Below are positions 2,775 through 34,669 of a stretch of 43,525 nucleotides of DNA, piece by piece. The stretch is taken from NCBI GenBank assembly GCA_028696805.1, contig JAQVGI010000005.1, positions 1-43,525 of the forward strand. Reading direction: 5' to 3'. The position numbers and the translations under genes are program-made. Under the pieces are notes generated by a model. That model was not told where the DNA came from, searched no databases, and saw only the letters and a list, made by a program, of their open reading frames with translations. Within the stretch, counting starts at the first letter, position 1, and each line of letters begins with the position of its first letter. This stretch comes from Alphaproteobacteria bacterium (lineage in GTDB: Bacteria > Pseudomonadota > Alphaproteobacteria > CAAHEQ01 > UBA3637).

Positions 2775-3635
2775 CTAAAATCCGACCTTTTTCTGGAAGA
2801 TGCCCTGCGGGCGGACATACAGGAATCCGATGAAGATGATGAACGAAATCAAATCGCGCCACTCGGAGGCGAATATCCAGACGGCGATATTCTCGCTGAA
2901 CGCCAGGAACAAGGCTCCCCAGAACGCGCCTTTCAGGTTGCGCATGCCGCCGATAATCGCGGAAATCATCCCTTTGAACAGCCAGTTGAACCCCATCGTC
3001 GGCTCCATGCCGACATCGTAGCCGATCAGGATGCCGCAGACCCCCAGAATCGCGCCCGCAATCACGGACACGATCAAAATGATGCGGTCCGTCCGCATGC
3101 CGATGATGTGCGCCAGAGTTGTCGAGTCGTGGACGGCGCGGATCTGCTTGCCGATGAAAGTCCTTTCCAGGAAAATCCGCAGCCCGATGTAAAAGCCGAA
3201 AAACAGGATGATCGTCACGAACTGGATGACGGGCATCGTGGCGATGCCCAGGTTGATCTGATGCGCGTTCAGGGCTTTGCCGAGCGTGTAATACTGCGCG
3301 CCGAAAATCAGGCTGATCGTCGCCTCGAAAACGGTGTAGAGCCCCAGGCTGACGACCAGCAGGATCATCGGCGACGCGCCGTGGAGCCGCATCGGCTTAT
3401 ACGCCAGGGCTTCCAGCATCTACGCCAGCACGGCGACCAGCGCGACGACCGGAACCATCGCCCAGACCCCCAGCGTCGGGAACAGGTAGAACGTGGCGTA
3501 TGACCCGACGGCGATCAACGATCCCAGGGTCAGGTTGAAAAACGGCGAAACGGAATACATCAGCCGGAAAGCCAGCGCAATCAATCCGTATCCGGAACCG
3601 ACGATCAGCGTGTTGACAAACAATTGGAGCAACAT
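2775..3635 (-). pseudogene. livH: LivH-type permease, interrupted by one in-frame amber codon
   Basis: Inner-membrane permease of the Liv importer, 287 codons in one frame. Codon 72 (3420-3422) is TAG. The upstream part (3635-3423) encodes residues 1-71, including GLIALAFRLMYSVSPFFNLTLG, typical of a LivH N-terminus. The downstream part (3419-2775) begins at once with ATG and encodes the rest, including EALAYKPMRL and the C-terminal RPQGIFQKK block. Nothing is missing and no frameshift is seen. It may be a recent nonsense mutation (GAG or CAG to TAG), a read-through codon, two polypeptides made by re-initiation at the ATG touching the stop, or a sequence error. The gene also ends in TAG at 2775-2777. 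An AAGGAA box precedes the start. Confidence 0.8.
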
Positions 3636-12459: not shown

Positions 12460-12660
12460 ATGAAAAAAGACATGATTTCCATAATCGTCCCGGCCTTCAA
12501 CGCGGAAAAGTATATCGCGCGGTGCCTGGACGCGCTGCGGGCGTGCTTTGTTGATCACTGGCTTGCAGTGACAGGTTTACAAAAGAATAAGGATACGGTT
12601 GCTTTCCGGAAAAATAATGGTTATAATGCTCTAATCCTACAAGGATTTATCGTTGCTTAA
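12460..12660 (+). pseudogene. Truncated GT2 glycosyltransferase, stub A (host-like base composition)
   Basis: The first 28 residues (SIIVPAFNAEKYIARCLDALR) are a clear family 2 glycosyltransferase N-terminus in the GC-rich style of the chromosome. From about 12545 the sequence becomes AT-rich and the frame continues as about 38 unrelated residues to a TAA. It looks like a resident GT2 gene broken at the left edge of the AT-rich island. No good ribosome-binding site is seen. Without the catalytic Asp residues it cannot be active. Confidence 0.75.
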
Positions 12661-12693
12661 ATCTTTACAGTTTCATCCAAAAACAGGGATACG

Positions 12694-12834
12694 ATGGATA
12701 AACAGAATGAACACAAGATTGTTGCAGAACCTACGGGTGAAAAATCGCCTGTTTTATCTATAATCATTCCCGTTTATAATGTTGAAAAATATTCGCACAA
12801 GCGATTGACAAGGAGCGCGAAATGGCAAGCATAA
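12694..12834 (+). pseudogene. Truncated GT2 glycosyltransferase, stub B
   Basis: 46-codon frame. Residues about 20-33 (VLSIIIPVYNVEKY) are a GT2 N-terminus; the sequence then runs straight into the leader of glf and ends with TAA inside glf. AT-rich like the island. The break occurs exactly after the VEKY motif, at the string GTTGAAAAATAT (12781-12792), which is also present in stub C. Confidence 0.75.
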
Positions 12835-13928
12835 AAAATCTGATCGTTGGATGCGGCATATCCGGGGCATCGTTGGCAAGAAAACTTGCCGAGGCAGGAG
12901 AGCAAGTGGTTATTATTGACGCAAAAGACCATATCGCCGGTAATTGTCATGACTATAATGATAATGGTATTATGGTGCAAAAATACGGTGCGCATATTTT
13001 CCATACGAATGACAAAGAAGTCTGGGATTTTTTAAGCCGGTTCACGGATTGGTATCCGTATCAGCACAAGGTTTTGGGACTTATAGACGGCCAGTTTGTG
13101 CCGATTCCGTTTAATCTGAATTCTCTGCATGCTCTGTTCCCGGGCTTTATGGCAGATGAGCTGGAAAAACGACTGCTGGAAAATTTTGGCTTGAATAAAA
13201 AAATTCCGATTTTACAATTACGCAAGACCGGCAATAAAGACTTAGAAATGCTGGCGGACTATATTTATGAAAAGGTTTTCCTGCAATACACATTAAAACA
13301 ATGGGGGCTTGCGCCAGACCAGATAGATCCAAACGTTACGGAGCGCGTTCCGGTTTATACCGGCCGCGATAACCGGTATTTCGCGGCGGATAAATATCAG
13401 GGAATCCCGGCGGAGGGTTTTACCGAGATGGTTCGCAAAATGCTGGACCACAATGATATACAAGTAAAGCTGAATACTCCGTTTGATAAAACTATGGAGT
13501 ATAAGCAGCTTTTTTACACAGGGGCGATAGATGAATTCTTTGATTATTTTTGGGGCGAATTGCCATACCGCAGCCTGCGGTTTCAATTCGCTCAATACAA
13601 TTTTCCAAAGTTCCAGCAATCCGCGGTTGTGAATTGGCCGTGCAATTACGACTGGACAAAAAGCGACGAGCATAAATATTTTCTAAATGACCAGTCAGAT
13701 AAAACAATAATTTCTTACGAATATCCAGAAGCTTTTCAACGCGGAGTGAACGAGCGGTATTACCCGATACAAAATGACGAGAGCGCATCGCTGTATTCCA
13801 AATATTTGGAGCAAGCCAAGTCGTTAAAAAATGTTCATTTCCTTGGCCGCCTGGGCGATTACAAATACTATGACATGGATAAAGCTGTGGCGCGCGTGTT
13901 GGAATTAGTAAAGGAAATTGCAAAATGA
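12822..13928 (+). CDS. glf: UDP-galactopyranose mutase
   Basis: Flavoenzyme that converts UDP-galactopyranose to UDP-galactofuranose for surface polysaccharide, 368 aa, normal length. The FAD-binding start is VGCGISGASLARKLAE with VVIIDAKDHIAGN, followed by KYGAHIFHT, the IPFNLNSL segment, and late blocks GRDNRYFAADKYQGIP and LPYRSLRFQF. AAGGAG precedes the ATG at 12822. Its TGA overlaps the next start (ATGA). The gene is AT-rich with A/T-ending codons, unlike the flanking chromosome, which suggests acquisition by transfer. It begins an operon with the methyltransferase and GT2. Confidence 0.96.
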   Translation: MASIKNLIVGCGISGASLARKLAEAGEQVVIIDAKDHIAGNCHDYNDNGIMVQKYGAHIFHTNDKEVWDFLSRFTDWYPYQHKVLGLIDGQFVPIPFNLNSLHALFPGFMADELEKRLLENFGLNKKIPILQLRKTGNKDLEMLADYIYEKVFLQYTLKQWGLAPDQIDPNVTERVPVYTGRDNRYFAADKYQGIPAEGFTEMVRKMLDHNDIQVKLNTPFDKTMEYKQLFYTGAIDEFFDYFWGELPYRSLRFQFAQYNFPKFQQSAVVNWPCNYDWTKSDEHKYFLNDQSDKTIISYEYPEAFQRGVNERYYPIQNDESASLYSKYLEQAKSLKNVHFLGRLGDYKYYDMDKAVARVLELVKEIAK

Positions 13929-14935
13929 AAAATCCGCTGCGCAAATTATTTCACAAAAAAGCTAGCAATTCCACAACAACAATAGCAGATGATTTTTTCT
14001 GGGCTTGTGGCGTATTATCTATGGGGCAGAACACCATACTGCAAGATTATTTTCTGAAAAATAATATGCCGGAAAAAATTGCCAAATTAAAAGAGGGGTT
14101 CGATGAGGAGTCCCGGAGCAACATTGACCGATATTTACATAGAATGTTGACTCTGCCAGACTTCAAAATCTCTAAAAATTACAGAATCAGGAGAGAGTTT
14201 TTAGAATCTTTCCAAACAGAACGGGAAAAGGATTTAACGGCACAATTTTTTCAAAATCTGCCACAATACAAAACCGATGTTGTGTTAAATAAAGATGAAT
14301 ATAATCCAGATACTTTTCTATTCCATCACGGATTATATTTCCAAAATGATAAATTAAAAAAATATATCGCAGGAAAAGATTTTATAGATGGCGGGGCATA
14401 TATTGGCGATTCCGCAATTATGTTGAACAAGCATTACAATCCGAAAAAAGTCTGGTCGTTTGAGATCTCTAAAAAGAACGCCAGTTTATATAAAGAAAAT
14501 CTTGATAATAATAATATAGCAAAAGATAAATATGCCCTTGTGGATATGGGATTAGGAAAATTAAAATGCAGTTTGCTTATAGATGATATTGGCGGCCAAG
14601 GTGCAAATATTTTATGCCAAGGCGATAGTGAAATAAAAATAACGGATATCGATTCGTTTGTAAAAGAGAACTCGTTGCAGGTTGGATTTATTAAAAGCGA
14701 TGTTGAAGGTGTCGGACTGGATGCACTGGAAGGAATGGCTGAAACAATACAAAAACATCGTCCGGTTTTGTGTCTTGCCATTTATCATAATCCAACAGAA
14801 TTTTTTGATATGCCGCCGCGGGTGCGTGAAATCTGCGGGGGAGAGTATGAGATTATGATTACTCAACTTCATCCGTTTTACGATTGCAACAACGAGATTG
14901 TGATTTTTGCTTATCCAAAGGAGTTAGACCAGTGA
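13925..14935 (+). CDS. FkbM-family methyltransferase-like protein
   Basis: 336-aa protein whose second half resembles FkbM methyltransferases, which often decorate polysaccharides. The SAM-site-like FIDGGAYIGDSAIMLNK is near residue 155, KVWSFEISKKN near 178, and GFIKSDVEGVGLDALEGM near 255 (the usual FkbM K-x-D-x-EG block). The first about 130 residues are a helical extension of unknown role. Translationally coupled to glf by ATGA. Its own TGA overlaps the GTG of the next gene. AT-rich, part of the island. Confidence 0.82.
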   Translation: MKNPLRKLFHKKASNSTTTIADDFFWACGVLSMGQNTILQDYFLKNNMPEKIAKLKEGFDEESRSNIDRYLHRMLTLPDFKISKNYRIRREFLESFQTEREKDLTAQFFQNLPQYKTDVVLNKDEYNPDTFLFHHGLYFQNDKLKKYIAGKDFIDGGAYIGDSAIMLNKHYNPKKVWSFEISKKNASLYKENLDNNNIAKDKYALVDMGLGKLKCSLLIDDIGGQGANILCQGDSEIKITDIDSFVKENSLQVGFIKSDVEGVGLDALEGMAETIQKHRPVLCLAIYHNPTEFFDMPPRVREICGGEYEIMITQLHPFYDCNNEIVIFAYPKELDQ

Positions 14936-16038
14936 AAAAGCACTTGCGACTTTCTGTTATTGTTCCAATTTGCAATGTTGAAAAATACCTGCGTCAATGT
15001 CTTGACAGCATAGTGGCTTCAACACTGAAAGATTTGGAAATAATCCTTATCAACGATGGTTCAAAAGATAATTCGCTTGTGATAATGCAGGAATATGCCA
15101 AACGCGACAAGCGTATAAAAATCATAGATAAGCCGAACGAAGGTTATGGCAAAACTATGAATCGCGGCTTGGATATAGCAGCGGGCGATTATATCGGAAT
15201 CGTTGAATCCGATGACTGGATAGAACCAGATATGTATGAAACGCTTTATAATTTAGCAAAAAAACATAAGGTTGATATTGCAAAAGGACGCTTTTTTCAA
15301 TTTGATGATAAAACGGGGGAAACAGAACACCTTTCATCATTGCCGGAATATGATGCTGAACAGGTTATAAATCCCCGCGAACGCCCCGCTATTTTTACAA
15401 CGGGAGCAAGCATTTGGTCGGCGATATACAGACGTGATTTCCTGAACGACAATAAAATTCGCTTTCTTGAAAGCCCCGGTGCGTCTTATCAGGATACTGG
15501 ATTCAATTTCAAGGTTTGGGCTATGGCAAAATCAGCATATTTGACAATGAAGCCATTGCTGCATTATCGCGTTGGGCATGCCAGCCAATCTGTTAAAAGC
15601 AAGGATAAAGTATTTTGCATTTGCGATGAGTTCAAGGAAATTGAACGCTATATGGCCGATAAAAAGAAAAAGTTTCATGCGCTGGAAAAAATTTTTAATC
15701 GGGTGAAATATGGTTGTTATAAATGGAATTATAACCGCTTGGACGGCGAAAATCGCGAGGCATTTAGAAAAGCTATGGCATCGGAATTATCAGAGGCGGT
15801 GAAAAACGATAAGATCGAATTGATAGATTTTTCATACAGGGACAGGGTTAAATTACAGAAATTTTTCCAGCCGGATTCTATTCGGCTGAAAACGGAATAC
15901 ATATTTGCGGAAATTGGCCGTTGGTTTGTAAAAACAAAAAACAGGCACGGCATGAAACGATGGTATATTCTCGGTTTTTTTCCGTATATGGAAACGCCCA
16001 CTTATCTGGAAAAGCGTAAAGGAGAATTAAAATGGTAA
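14932..16038 (+). CDS. Family 2 glycosyltransferase (intact)
   Basis: 368-aa GT2 enzyme, expected to transfer a sugar in surface polysaccharide synthesis at the cytoplasmic face of the membrane. It has SVIVPICNVEKYLRQCLDS, LINDGSKDNS and the metal-binding-type VESDDW block near residue 87. The start is a GTG at 14932 with AAAGGAG 8 nt upstream; the ATG at 14884 lies inside the previous gene without a ribosome-binding site. It is the only complete GT2 in the island. The sugar donor cannot be told. The end overlaps the start of stub C. Confidence 0.88.
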   Translation: MKKHLRLSVIVPICNVEKYLRQCLDSIVASTLKDLEIILINDGSKDNSLVIMQEYAKRDKRIKIIDKPNEGYGKTMNRGLDIAAGDYIGIVESDDWIEPDMYETLYNLAKKHKVDIAKGRFFQFDDKTGETEHLSSLPEYDAEQVINPRERPAIFTTGASIWSAIYRRDFLNDNKIRFLESPGASYQDTGFNFKVWAMAKSAYLTMKPLLHYRVGHASQSVKSKDKVFCICDEFKEIERYMADKKKKFHALEKIFNRVKYGCYKWNYNRLDGENREAFRKAMASELSEAVKNDKIELIDFSYRDRVKLQKFFQPDSIRLKTEYIFAEIGRWFVKTKNRHGMKRWYILGFFPYMETPTYLEKRKGELKW

Positions 16039-16217
16039 AACAACCAAAGGTATCGGTGATTGTTCCGATTTGGGGCGTTGAAAAATATCTGAACCAATGC
16101 GTGGACAGCATTCTGGCGCAAACATTGGCGGATATAGAGGTCATCCTTGTTGATGACGGAAGCCCTGACAAAATCGACGGCAACAACATCGTCTATGAGG
16201 CCCTTTGCGTCCGATAG
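16032..16217 (+). pseudogene. Truncated GT2 glycosyltransferase, stub C
   Basis: 61-codon frame. Residues 7-46 (VSVIVPIWGVEKYLNQCVDS, then VILVDDGSPDK) are a good GT2 N-terminus. After GSPDK the sequence no longer fits the family and ends in TAG at 16215, touching the tRNA-Phe terminator. This is probably the right-hand junction of the island, near 16170. It overlaps the end of the intact GT2 by 7 nt. It lacks most of the catalytic domain. Confidence 0.8.
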
Positions 16218-16247: not shown

Positions 16248-16323
16248 TGGTGCCTGGGGACGGGATTGAACCGCCGACACGTAGATTTTCAGTCTACTGC
16301 TCTACCAACTGAGCTACCCAGGC
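16248..16323 (-). tRNA. tRNA-Phe (anticodon GAA)
   Basis: 76-nt cloverleaf. The acceptor arm pairs GCCTGGG with CCCAGGC and ends in an encoded CCA. The anticodon loop reads CTGAAAA, giving GAA. The T arm contains GGTTCAATCC. It marks the right border of the AT-rich island. Confidence 0.96.
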
Positions 16324-30915: not shown

Positions 30916-30939
30916 TTAGGAAAATAATCCTCTTTTTAA

Positions 30940-30968
30940 TTGACTTTTAGGAAAAAATATGATATACT
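30940..30968 (+). promoter_or_regulatory. Strong promoter of the leader RNA / tail-fibre unit
   Basis: TTGACT (30940-30945), 17-nt spacer, TATACT (30963-30968). Transcription should begin near 30975, about 183 nt before the first coding ATG. Confidence 0.75.
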
Positions 30969-30974
30969 GCGGGG

Positions 30975-31098
30975 CAGTCAGAGGGACAAGTCCGTCCGGA
31001 CTGAAATCCCCTGACACGGCCGCATCGCCCGCATGATGCGGCGCCCCATCATTCCCGATCCGCCTGACTTCCGAATCCCGCCGTCCGCGCGGGTTTTT
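30975..31098 (+). ncRNA. Hairpin-rich leader or small RNA of unknown family, about 124 nt
   Basis: Lies between a strong promoter and an intrinsic terminator and contains no convincing ORF. Three hairpins are visible. Hairpin 1 (30977-31015) pairs GTCAG with CTGAC, GGGA with TCCC, and AGTCCG with CGGACT. Hairpin 2 (31019-31042) has a perfect 8-bp stem, GCCGCATC with GATGCGGC. Hairpin 3 (31077-31098) is a terminator. It could be a free small RNA, or a 5' leader that controls the tail-fibre-like gene by early termination. I recognise no known riboswitch or sRNA in it. Confidence 0.5.
31077..31098 (+). terminator. Intrinsic terminator inside the leader
   Basis: CCCGC, 7-nt loop, GCGGG, then TTTTT. 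It sits 60 nt before the start codon of the downstream gene, so it either ends a small RNA or acts as an attenuator. Confidence 0.6.
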
Positions 31099-31157
31099 CA
31101 ATATGGGAACGATGTGCCTACCCTCTCAACCCGCAACCCGAAAAGGAGATTATCCTC

Positions 31158-32159
31158 ATGACAGAACACATCGTCGTCGGCTCCGAGCCGCCGCGCATCC
31201 AATATGCGGCGGACGGAACGACAAGCCGGTTCGAAACGCCCTTCCCCGTTTTCAAGCCCGACGCCCTTCAAATTTTCATCGACGACGCGGAAGTCCCCGC
31301 CGAAAACTACGCGGTGGATCTGGACGGCGACCTGCGCGCCGCCGTCGTTTTCGCCGCGCCGCCGCCGCAACACGCCGTCGTCACGATCACGCGCGTGCTG
31401 CCGATCGAGCGCGCCAGCCATTTCCAGGAAGGCGGCGCTCTGCGCGCGGACGTGCTGAACTACGAGTTCAACTACCAGATGGCCTGCCTGCAACAGCTGG
31501 CCGACAACCTGAACCGATCGATGATCATGCCGCCTTACGCCATCGACCCGAGCGTCCAGCTGAAGCTGCCGACGCCGACCGCGGGCAAGTCCATTATGTG
31601 GAGCGCCGACGGGAAATCGCTGGTCAATTCCAGCATCGAAATCAACAGCCTGCTGGACGAGATCGCCGCGCAATCCGCGCAGACGGCGGCCGCGTCGCAA
31701 ACCGCAACCGCGCAAGCCTCCGCGGCGGAAACGCATGCGGCGACGGCGACGGCGCAGGCGACCATCGCCACGAACCAGGCGGCGGTCGCGACCCAAAAGG
31801 CGGCCGAAGCGGTTCAGACGCTCGCCCAGAAAGCGTCCGTCAGCGCCGACAACTTCTCCGCCGCCGGCAAGGAAGCCATCGTGATTCTGGGCCGCCCGGA
31901 CGATGCGCGCGCCATTTCCTTTTCGACGACGAGCCCCTACACATGCCCGAACCACGGGTATGTCAGCATAACGATCAACGGATCGGCCAGCGGCGCGACA
32001 AACGTCCAGCGGAACGGCAAAAATGTCGGATATGCCTGGCACACGAACACCTATGTGGGGAACAGGACGAACTTCCCCGTTTCCAAAAACGATGTGATCG
32101 CATGGAGCGGCCCCGGCGGCGTCAGCGATCCCATCTTTGCACCCCTGAAAGGAGTTTAA
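31158..32159 (+). CDS. Phage T7-type tail-fibre-like protein
   Basis: 333 aa. Residues about 1-115 resemble the N-terminal, tail-attaching domain of T7-like fibre proteins: YAADGTTSRFETPFPVFKPD, then ITRVLPIERASHFQEGGALR and ADVLNYEFNYQMACLQQLAD. Residues about 170-225 are an Ala/Thr/Gln-rich heptad-like stretch, likely a trimeric coiled coil. The C-terminal about 100 residues, rich in Gly, Asn, Ser and Thr (around HGYVSITINGSASGATN), form a possible receptor-binding head. AAAAGGAG precedes the ATG. No other phage structural, packaging or lysis gene is nearby apart from the small gene that follows, so this is a domesticated or remnant fibre. Confidence 0.78.
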   Translation: MTEHIVVGSEPPRIQYAADGTTSRFETPFPVFKPDALQIFIDDAEVPAENYAVDLDGDLRAAVVFAAPPPQHAVVTITRVLPIERASHFQEGGALRADVLNYEFNYQMACLQQLADNLNRSMIMPPYAIDPSVQLKLPTPTAGKSIMWSADGKSLVNSSIEINSLLDEIAAQSAQTAAASQTATAQASAAETHAATATAQATIATNQAAVATQKAAEAVQTLAQKASVSADNFSAAGKEAIVILGRPDDARAISFSTTSPYTCPNHGYVSITINGSASGATNVQRNGKNVGYAWHTNTYVGNRTNFPVSKNDVIAWSGPGGVSDPIFAPLKGV

Positions 32160-32160
32160 G

Positions 32161-32466
32161 ATGAAAAAATACGCAAAAATCCACGACGCGCAGACGCGCG
32201 TGTGCGAGGTCTTTATCGGAACGGACACCGCGTGGGCGATCGCCCGGGGTTTCGCCGAAATGGATGTCGAGCAAGCCCCGGCCGGCGATTGGTATGCGGC
32301 GGGATACGCGCCGCCGACGCCCGAAAAAACATACGCAGAAAAACGGGCGGCCGCCTACCCGTCCGTCACGGACCAGCTGGACATGATGTATTGGGACAAG
32401 GTCAACGGCACGGACGATTGGCGCGACGCCGTCGCCGCCGTCAAGGCCGCCTATCCGAAGGCATAG
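32161..32466 (+). CDS. Small tail-fibre-assembly-like protein
   Basis: 101 aa, starting 1 nt after the tail-fibre-like stop, with AAAGGAG in the end of that gene. The C-terminal half (RAAAYPSVTDQLDMMYWDKV, then NGTDDWRDAVAAVKAAYPK) is a pattern common in small proteins encoded after phage fibre genes, thought to help fibre assembly or form a chaperone. The N-terminal half is unknown. It ends in TAG, and a strong terminator begins 4 nt later, closing the two-gene unit. Confidence 0.72.
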   Translation: MKKYAKIHDAQTRVCEVFIGTDTAWAIARGFAEMDVEQAPAGDWYAAGYAPPTPEKTYAEKRAAAYPSVTDQLDMMYWDKVNGTDDWRDAVAAVKAAYPKA

Positions 32467-32469
32467 CGA

Positions 32470-32495
32470 AAGGGGCGCCCGCCGCCCCTTTTTTT
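32470..32495 (+). terminator. Intrinsic terminator of the tail-fibre unit
   Basis: 8-bp stem AAGGGGCG/CGCCCCTT with loop CCCGC, running into a T tract. Confidence 0.85.
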
Positions 32496-32631: not shown

Positions 32632-33564
32632 CTAGGGTGTTCCATGCAGCATCCTCCACAACGCGATGCGGTGCTTCAGTTTCAAGCCGGCATACGAGAT
32701 GCGCCCGCGCGCCGACAATTCCCGCAGCCGCGGCCGCAGATAGGCCCGCAGATCCGCCCGGGAATCCGGCGGCGATTTCGCAATGCGGTTGAACATCATC
32801 TTGACGCGGCTGTTCAGGATGTATTTCCGGACAGCCGGAAGATCCGCCGGCCGGTTCCGCGCGATGAAATCGTAAACCGCATCGATGACCGCCGCATAGC
32901 TGTCCGTTTTCTTGTCGCTCCAAACCGAATGCATGATGGAGCCGAGATTGGCGTAGTAAAAATAAAGCTTTTCATCGACCAGCGCATATTTTTCGATTTT
33001 TGACATGACCTCGACCGTCCACGGCACATCTTCGAAAAAGATGCCCGGAATGAACCGCATGCCCTGTATTGTAGATTTCCGATACAACCGGCAGATGGAT
33101 GTCATGACCGACCGGTTCGTCATAAAAGCTTTCAGAGGTGCAATAAACACCTTGACCCGCCAGTCTGTCATGTCGGGCGGCATGGGCCGATAAACCAAAT
33201 CCGTTTTTTTCAAGGCGCATCCCGCAACATCCGCCTCCTCTTTGTCCATCACGGACAGCAAGATCTCGAACATCTGGGGATGGATGTAATCGTCCGCATC
33301 GACGAAAGCGATGACCTGCCCCGTCGCGTGCGCCAATCCCGTGTTGCGCGCACCGGACGGGCCTTGATTTTCCTGGCGGATGACGCGGAAGCGGCCGTCC
33401 GTTTCCGCAAACTCCGCGGCGATGCGCCCGGACGCGTCGCGCGACCCGTCGTCGACGCAGATGCATTCGAAATCCGCGTGCGTCTGGGCGGCGATGCTGC
33501 GCAGGCATCCCGAAACATATTTTTCAACCTGATACATCGGCACGATGACAGAAACCTTGACCAT
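32632..33564 (-). CDS. Family 2 glycosyltransferase, possibly frameshifted near its end
   Basis: 310-aa GT2 enzyme of surface polysaccharide synthesis: VSVIVPMYQVEKYVSGCLRS, CVDDGSRD, GPSGARNTGLA and the metal-site-type FVDADDY. The ATG at 33564 follows GAGGGAAAA; a longer frame to 33630 crosses the promoter and is rejected. It ends in TAG after ALWRMLHGTP. Another minus-strand frame then continues with a basic, protein-like tail (LGRPSPSSLLKGKLLLKRLV, then WPKRKNLQKLQSKIHYWQS) to a TGA at 32495, exactly at the next terminator. A 1- or 2-nt indel near 32635-32650 would therefore have cut off about 45 residues. GC-rich and host-like. Confidence 0.85.
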   Translation of the reverse strand: MVKVSVIVPMYQVEKYVSGCLRSIAAQTHADFECICVDDGSRDASGRIAAEFAETDGRFRVIRQENQGPSGARNTGLAHATGQVIAFVDADDYIHPQMFEILLSVMDKEEADVAGCALKKTDLVYRPMPPDMTDWRVKVFIAPLKAFMTNRSVMTSICRLYRKSTIQGMRFIPGIFFEDVPWTVEVMSKIEKYALVDEKLYFYYANLGSIMHSVWSDKKTDSYAAVIDAVYDFIARNRPADLPAVRKYILNSRVKMMFNRIAKSPPDSRADLRAYLRPRLRELSARGRISYAGLKLKHRIALWRMLHGTP

Positions 33565-33601
33565 TTTTCCCTCGGATATCCGCTGCGTTCTCTGGATACC
33601 G

Positions 33602-33630
33602 ATTGTATAGGAACCCGCCCGAAATTGCAA
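33602..33630 (-). promoter_or_regulatory. Promoter of the GT2 gene at 33564
   Basis: TTGCAA, 17-nt spacer, TACAAT on the minus strand, 37 nt before the start codon. Confidence 0.65.
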
Positions 33631-33657: not shown

Positions 33658-34623
33658 CTAGCCGGTTTCTTTCGGAACGCCGCGGGCGCGCGGGTGGGCG
33701 CGGTCGTAGACTTTTTTCAGCTGGATGGTCGTCACCTCGGTGTAGCGCTGGGTCGCCGACAGCGACGCGTGCCCCAGCAGCTCCTGAACCGTCCGCAGGT
33801 CGCCGCCGCCTTGCAGCAGGTGCGTCGCGAAGCTGTGCCGCAGCGCGTGCGGCGTCAACGTGTCCGGCAGGTTCAGCGCATAGCGTATGCTCCGCACATT
33901 GCGCTGGACGACGCCGGGGTTCAGCCTGTCCCCCTGCTTGCCGACGAACAGCGGCGCGCGCGTATCCGGGCACGGATGCGCCGACAGGCAGGCGCCGATC
34001 GCCTTCTTCACGACCGGCAGCAGCGGCACGACGCGCTGCTTGCCGCCCTTGCCGGTGATGGTGAAGGCAGAGCCGGCGCCCGCCACATCGCCGACGTTCA
34101 GCGACAGCGCTTCGGCGATCCGCAGCCCGCACCCGTACATCAGCAGATACAGCGCCCTGTCGCGTTTCGCCTGCCACGGCTGCGCCGCCGTTTCGGACGC
34201 CTTGTCCAAGAAGCGGCGCGCGTCCTCGACGGACAGCGGGTGCGGCAGCGTCCGCCCGATGCGCGCGGACCGGACGGCCATGATCGCGGTATTTTCGGCC
34301 AAGTCCCGCGCCGTCAGGTACTTGTAGAAATGCCGCAGAGCGGACATGCCGCGCGCCAGCGAGGGGCGCGATATGTTGCGGCCGGACCGGGCGACCAGAA
34401 ACGCGCGGAAATCGGACACGCCGAGCGACCGGATGTCCGCCAGGGCGATTTCCGGCTTTTCCAGATGCGGCGCCAGGAAGGCGAAAAACGCCTGCATGTC
34501 CTGCAGGTAGGCGTCCGCCGTGTGGCGCGCCAGCCGGCGTTCCAACATCATGTAATCCCGCCATTCCCGGATGAGGGTGTTCAGGGATGAATCCGCTTGC
34601 GAAATCAGCTTGTGTTCCGGCAT
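33658..34623 (-). CDS. xerC: Tyrosine recombinase XerC
   Basis: Site-specific recombinase that with XerD resolves chromosome dimers at dif, 321 aa. The N-terminal SAM-like DNA-binding domain spans about 15-105. The catalytic set is complete: Arg in GCGLRIAE, Lys in GKGGKQR, HALRHSFATHLL, the second His in LGHASL and the nucleophile Tyr in SATQRYTE. ATG at 34623 is preceded by AAAGGA; an earlier in-frame ATG at 34668 overlaps the priA start region. It looks like the housekeeping enzyme, not an island integrase. It ends in TAG and is divergent from priA. Confidence 0.9.
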   Translation of the reverse strand: MPEHKLISQADSSLNTLIREWRDYMMLERRLARHTADAYLQDMQAFFAFLAPHLEKPEIALADIRSLGVSDFRAFLVARSGRNISRPSLARGMSALRHFYKYLTARDLAENTAIMAVRSARIGRTLPHPLSVEDARRFLDKASETAAQPWQAKRDRALYLLMYGCGLRIAEALSLNVGDVAGAGSAFTITGKGGKQRVVPLLPVVKKAIGACLSAHPCPDTRAPLFVGKQGDRLNPGVVQRNVRSIRYALNLPDTLTPHALRHSFATHLLQGGGDLRTVQELLGHASLSATQRYTEVTTIQLKKVYDRAHPRARGVPKETG

Positions 34624-34669
34624 GTTTTGATGTATCCTTTCCGTTAACAATAACCGAAAGACAAACAAA

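Follow-up and report, generated by a model that had tools for sequence, protein, structure and literature searches.

A tail-fibre gene of phage type that stands intact among bacterial genes raises the question of which particle, if any, it serves. We addressed this question for a fibre locus in an alphaproteobacterial contig (JAQVGI010000005.1 of assembly GCA_028696805.1), of which the window, that is, the whole stretch analysed, covers 43,525 nucleotides. An earlier note, made from the letters alone, had described a closed two-gene unit with its own promoter, structured leader and terminator, host-like in GC content and without phage genes around it. This description agrees with our analysis: both reading frames are intact, a TTGACT-17-TATACT promoter precedes them, the leader folds better than its shuffles (z −4.3) and a terminator closes the unit at 32470–32495 (Table 1). 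An Rfam search with the leader matched no family. The GC content of the unit is ~63%, as in the host, and it adjoins no genes for phage heads, tails, packaging or lysis. A Pfam match to a phage integrase at 33658–34668 looks like a host Xer recombinase adjoining priA. Elsewhere in the window, positions 12500–16200 are low in GC (36–43% versus ~60–65%) and end at a tRNA-Phe gene (16248–16323), which gives them the appearance of a genomic island.

Table 1. Features of the fibre unit and its surroundings, in window coordinates.
Feature	Position	Strand	Remarks
Operator-like palindrome TAGGAAAATAATCCT	30917..30931	.	Common to the portal operons of relatives
Sigma-70-type promoter, TTGACT-17-TATACT	30940..30968	+	Layout as in relatives
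Structured leader	30971..31157	+	Sequence unlike family leaders (no GTATC motif), layout alike
Intrinsic, attenuator-like terminator between promoter and fibre gene	31077..31098	+	31077–31093 plus U-run
Tail-fibre gene, 333 aa	31158..32159	+	Tail-attachment N-domain, coiled coil, variable head; frame intact
Phage_T7_tail N-terminal domain, residues 14–122	31197..31523	+	PF03906; solved relatives are the Dpo31/Dpo36 tailspikes
Long helix, probable trimeric coiled coil, residues 162–236	31641..31865	+	Predicted structure
C-terminal head domain	31875..32156	+	Part exchanged between genomes
Small partner protein, 101 aa	32161..32466	+	Intact ORF; variable N-half, conserved C-half
Terminator 3′ of the second gene	32470..32495	+	GGGGC-7-GCCCC, then U-run
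Convergent glycosyltransferase family 2 gene	32632..33630	−	What is left here of the polysaccharide genes usual at such sites

The T7-type N-terminus, coiled coil and head domain that had been read into the longer protein are all recovered. Residues 14–122 score 27.5 bits against PF03906, above the Pfam cut-off of 25.2, and the N-terminus also matches the phrog_1640 tail protein (E = 7.5e-10). In profile searches, the nearest solved structures to this domain are the tailspikes Dpo31 and Dpo36 (28lx/8ck1, E = 6e-18), and T7 gp17 is matched weakly by sequence (E = 0.058). Single-sequence structure prediction yields a long helix at residues 162–236 (pLDDT 65–84) followed by a beta-rich end, within a whole-fibre model that is poor (mean pLDDT 44). 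Named phages show ~23–29% identity to the fibre over part of the N-domain only, and IMG/VR contains no close viral relative. The small partner matches phrog_9114 and related phage families with no assigned function. Its C-half is conserved (YPS..DQLDM.YWD) and its N-half tracks the type of fibre head (partial Mantel r = 0.41, p = 2e-4), a covariation that makes it a probable fibre chaperone or cap.

We then considered where the fibre occurs and what accompanies it. The window's family consists of gut or rumen Alphaproteobacteria; the fibre is found in 26 of its 43 genomes and is also scattered through Alphaproteobacteria at large, usually with the small partner gene adjoining. Within the family, its presence follows that of a second locus, a syntenic short-tailed-phage block of ~11–15 kb. 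The fibre occurs in 24 of 28 family genomes that have the capsid gene of this block and in 1 of 14 that lack it, the lone exception being the window's own genome, G000 (0.96 Mb, 44 contigs), in which the fibre is single-copy; G018, whose cluster region is masked, is left out of this count. Genomes G005, G017, G031 and G033 have the cluster with no detectable fibre, and genera g2, g5 and g7 have neither.

The cluster begins with a divergent S24-type repressor, followed by F13, F17, portal (PF12236), a probable scaffold, capsid (PF19821), tail tube A, tail tube B, F16, the fibre where it is present at this position, F11, large terminase and a SleB endolysin. In the family, the cluster is closed by a further pair of small genes, F15 and F10, which appear holin-like by eye and which we guess to help lysis; particles would be released by the SleB endolysin and a holin. 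The GKST motif of the terminase is invariant, and tube B is ~30% identical to its counterparts in T7-like and Pelagibacter podophages. In several family loci, only tens of bases separate the cluster from ATP synthase or other host genes, which leaves no room there for integrase or replication genes at its edges. With a tube B profile, we found 465 encoding loci in a species-level genome collection. The best 80 of these 465, which we read, include Magnetospirillum, Magnetovibrio and Micavibrio, and those among the 80 that are long enough have one gene order with no integrase seen. Many 'viral' contigs of ~12–13 kb in IMG/VR (L249–L328) also carry the cluster with the fibre inside, and these may be host-owned elements filed as proviruses.

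The position of the fibre distinguishes the family from its relatives. Among loci in which tube B and terminase could both be compared, the fibre lies between the two in 42 of 44 non-family alphaproteobacterial loci and in none of 17 family loci, which indicates that the family moved the fibre out of the cluster. In family genomes the two loci are far apart, and the fibre pair is flanked by host genes and never lies in a prophage. The earlier note had reasoned that a full prophage exactly here in related genomes would reduce the unit to a random remnant; none was found, and such sites carry only the two-gene unit.

Comparison with a host marker indicates that the core cluster is inherited vertically and co-diversifies with its host. 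A tree of five cluster proteins has 8 of 9 splits in common with the GyrA tree over 12 genomes, and the distances of cluster and GyrA correlate at 0.96 overall and at 0.92 within the family (Mantel r). Where dN/dS could be measured for the cluster, it was low and mostly below 0.15; saturation affected many of the synonymous distances. The fibre N-domain follows GyrA weakly (r = 0.20, p = 0.09), and we therefore do not claim vertical descent for the fibre.

In their upstream sequences, fibre and particle operons of the family share one promoter signature. Under a strict pattern, a family palindrome, AGGAAAAWWWTCCT, followed by TTGAC lies 5′ of all 14 portal operons and of 10 of 18 fibre operons, the operator being degenerate or missing in several fibre loci. 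This pattern has 37 sites in 633 kb, 25 of which are upstream of portal or fibre operons. When whole genomes were tested, all 23 with the cluster contained the operator, and none of the 6 cluster-less ones did. The window form, TAGGAAAATAATCCT, is the only copy in G000 when up to one mismatch is allowed. Downstream of the promoter, 24 of 25 family leaders contain a terminator ahead of the first gene (versus 6% of shuffles), and a GTATC motif lies near +21 in family leaders of both portal and fibre operons.

These elements suggest how the system might be controlled. The operator reads exactly GGAA-AATT-TTCC in some promoters and GGAA-AATA-ATCC in others. RogA, the LexA-like repressor of the Caulobacter gene transfer agent (GTA), has the operator GGAA-N4-TTCC (PMC9632790); the AATT-centred palindrome has this form, and the S24 peptidase-type regulator in the cluster is a candidate for control of the RogA type. 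The S24 repressor would bind the palindrome (AGGAAAATTTTCCT, putative site) and keep particle and fibre operons off. Upon induction, transcription would have to pass the leader terminators by antitermination, perhaps through F13 (L145:6209–6607) or F17 (L145:6589–7011). These proteins of ~130 aa are encoded between repressor and portal and are conserved class-wide; neither matches a Pfam or PHROG family, and they are perhaps activators or antiterminators. The shared operator and leader also provide a sequence handle for finding all scattered genes of the system.

On this evidence, the window unit is very probably the receptor-binding module of a vertically inherited, podovirus-type phage-derived element, most likely a GTA, and in G000 it is probably a relict. 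What favours a GTA-like element is that inheritance is vertical, that the loci are scattered and that the packaging genes are conserved. Published criteria for GTAs include phage-homologous genes, endogenization often at several loci and vertical inheritance, together with an inability to package the whole of their own genome and the packaging and delivery of random host DNA (PMC9662315). Here, tailed-phage-like structural and packaging genes are found at family and class level and are deleted in G000, the element is endogenized at several loci, with family cluster and fibre separate under the same promoter, and inheritance is vertical. Among the proposals of the earlier note was a spare fibre serving a prophage or tailocin at a different site. 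The location survives, in that relatives encode a particle elsewhere in the genome behind the same promoter signature, whereas the kind of particle does not. Relatives encode capsid, portal and TerL, so the element is not a tailocin, and its inheritance with the host means that it is not an ordinary prophage. We also considered an ordinary prophage remnant, as phage-type genes without phage neighbours might suggest; this is exceedingly improbable given that the unit recurs in 26 of 43 family genomes at sites without a prophage, that its co-inherited partner cluster has no integrase or replication genes and that one promoter signature marks both loci.

The proposed GTA differs from those already described. 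Recognized alphaproteobacterial GTAs are long-tailed (PMC9662315), and an RcGTA-like (type I) long-tailed cluster can be dismissed here, as portal, capsid and tubes are podovirus-type. RcGTA and CcGTA are alike in vertical inheritance and several loci, and their capsule-binding fibres (PMC10218006) and RogA control (PMC9632790) have putative counterparts here, but they have long tails, whereas the present cluster has a PF12236 portal, a PF19821 capsid and podovirus tubes and, unlike them, contains its own repressor. BaGTA of Bartonella (type II) is likewise phage-derived and vertically kept, with tail-fibre genes (PMC3610622, PMC9662315), but is described as having long non-contractile tails and a link to secretion genes. 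T7-like and Pelagibacter podophages have the portal, tail tubes A and B and fibre N-domain in common with the element but are complete phages of ~35 kb with their own replication. FpGTA of Faecalibacterium (2026), the one podovirus-type GTA reported so far and introduced in its paper as the first GTA-like element of this morphology, resembles it in having podovirus-type genes, a main operon of ~10.5 kb and tail-fibre/receptor-binding genes at a distant second locus (PMC12946183). Its host, however, is a Firmicute, and the description of its second locus mentions no tie to polysaccharide genes; FpGTA particles have been seen, whereas the present element is known from its genes and is likened to FpGTA by description. 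Our search of the open literature, with subscription journals and preprints outside its scope, found no report of a podovirus-type GTA in Alphaproteobacteria.

The neighbourhood of the fibre points to its possible receptor. In 15 of the 18 loci, the fibre pair is followed by a convergent gene. Downstream neighbours are mostly glycosyltransferases, sugar-nucleotide enzymes and genes for rhamnan synthesis; no polysaccharide family was matched by two or more of the 69 proteins encoded upstream. Comparing heads between genomes, as the earlier note had proposed, revealed exchange of the head domain. At one site common to G014 and G022, upstream genes are 69–84% identical, the N-part of the fibre 78% and distal polysaccharide genes ~90%, but the heads, small proteins and nearest three or four polysaccharide genes do not match. 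G035 and G029 have upstream genes in common but not heads and sugar genes. Conversely, G002 and G009, which belong to different genera, have heads that are 83% identical and three sugar genes with a mean identity of 83%, whereas their upstream genes are unrelated. G002 and G018 have two downstream genes in common but not their heads. Fibre head and adjacent sugar genes change together in three informative pairs.

Because RcGTA fibres bind capsular polysaccharide (PMC10218006), polysaccharide is, by analogy, a plausible receptor for the present fibre. The fibre head would bind the cell's polysaccharide. In the gut family, the fibre module has left the cluster and travels with polysaccharide genes, so that the key (fibre) and the lock (sugar coat) would be exchanged together. 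Such a linkage of receptor binding to receptor synthesis, if true, would be a simple genomic way to keep particles aimed at kin as surface sugars change.

In the window's own genome, the partner cluster has been lost. Searching G000 for a particle that lacks its fibre, another proposal of the earlier note, yielded no portal, capsid or tube B gene in the 98% complete assembly, but it did yield a remnant of the cluster. The repressor profile matches half a gene on contig C36 (L331), where F10 and nearly all of F15 on the minus strand are joined directly to the S24 C-terminal half on the plus strand. This junction, at ~10197–10201 of L331, is single and precise, and the scar is flanked by the same neighbour genes as the cluster in G029 and G035; in relatives, the junction points lie ~10 kb apart. 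Everything from SleB to F13 is missing, together with the DNA-binding half of the repressor. At the ATP synthase site, which neighbours the cluster in several relatives, the ATPase operon of G000 is arranged differently and carries no evidence either way.

We weighed whether this deletion is an assembly artefact, such that the full element is present and the fibre live. The assembly consists of 44 contigs from mixed DNA, and in every sister lineage that has the fibre, the cluster is present too. A second apparent fibre-only genome, G018, was dropped because a masked run of N starts inside its repressor gene (L332:8001–20000; G018:C22 from 32001), so that the absence of a cluster there is not evidence; an absence of this kind can therefore be only apparent. 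An artefact is rather unlikely for G000, however, as the assembly also contains no second copy of the palindrome and the precise F15–repressor junction lies within one contig beside the expected neighbours.

A real deletion leaves the fate of the fibre to be explained. A neutral relict would be under no obligation to preserve its frame, promoter and operator, yet all three are intact. This might reflect a new role, in which the unit acts as a decoy or an adhesin or lends its fibre to incoming phages. We consider this decidedly unlikely: by eye, neither fibre nor partner has an apparent signal peptide, no other portal type is present (the RcGTA-type portal PF04860 is absent from G000), and although the leader terminator persists, the genes for F13 and F17, the candidate activators, have gone. 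In addition, the remnants at the scar have kept open frames; the loss thus seems to be a recent one, for which no new function is needed. Lacking its presumed activators but still behind a terminator, the window fibre is quite probably a recent relict, silent or nearly so, with assembly error as the main alternative. The earlier view of a kept, domesticated stand-alone device is weakened accordingly by the scar on C36, and for a surface adhesin or decoy we found no evidence.

The same operator and a tandem-terminator leader also precede operons at L394, L395, L396, L398 and L404 (sites 7359, 3619, 2957, 3621 and 7183, respectively). The L394 and L398 operons encode phage-lysozyme-like proteins, and L395 looks similar by eye. 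In the L404 operon, a Mu-F head domain comes before a region that weakly matches lysozyme-like proteins, and the L396 operon encodes a Tlde1/YkuD protein. It is possible that these lysozyme-like and YkuD products are particle cargo or entry enzymes.

The lysozyme-like (L394, L398 and L404), Mu-F and Tlde1/YkuD products would also suit a killing particle, a phage-like bacteriocin with a head that is aimed by the fibre and whose polysaccharide linkage sets self-immunity or target range. We regard this as possible though doubtful. The lysozymes may equally serve lysis or entry, and the invariant GKST motif of the terminase, together with strong purifying selection on portal and capsid, suggests that DNA packaging matters. 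Returning to the GTA reading, we are evenly balanced on its fullest form. This would be a class-wide podovirus-type GTA of Alphaproteobacteria in which the fibre of small-genome gut lineages is docked at polysaccharide genes so that coat exchange swaps the matching fibre. One repressor/antitermination signal would coordinate the scattered loci, and the regulon would extend to peptidoglycan-cutting proteins, possibly carried in the particle. The 465 tube B loci, with the one gene order among those read, suggest that a large class of host-owned particles has been overlooked in Alphaproteobacteria, cultivable magnetospirilla among them.

Two further pairs of loci were noted. L393:4761–5991 and L397:3915–4978, from two genomes of genus g6, encode, behind the same operator, small membrane-type proteins (57 aa; 194/195 aa) that match no family and perhaps form an accessory lysis operon. 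L399:2828–3487 and L403 from position 3475 onward, in two genomes of different genera, encode a DuOB (dual-OB-domain) protein behind a near-identical operator-leader with one mismatch.
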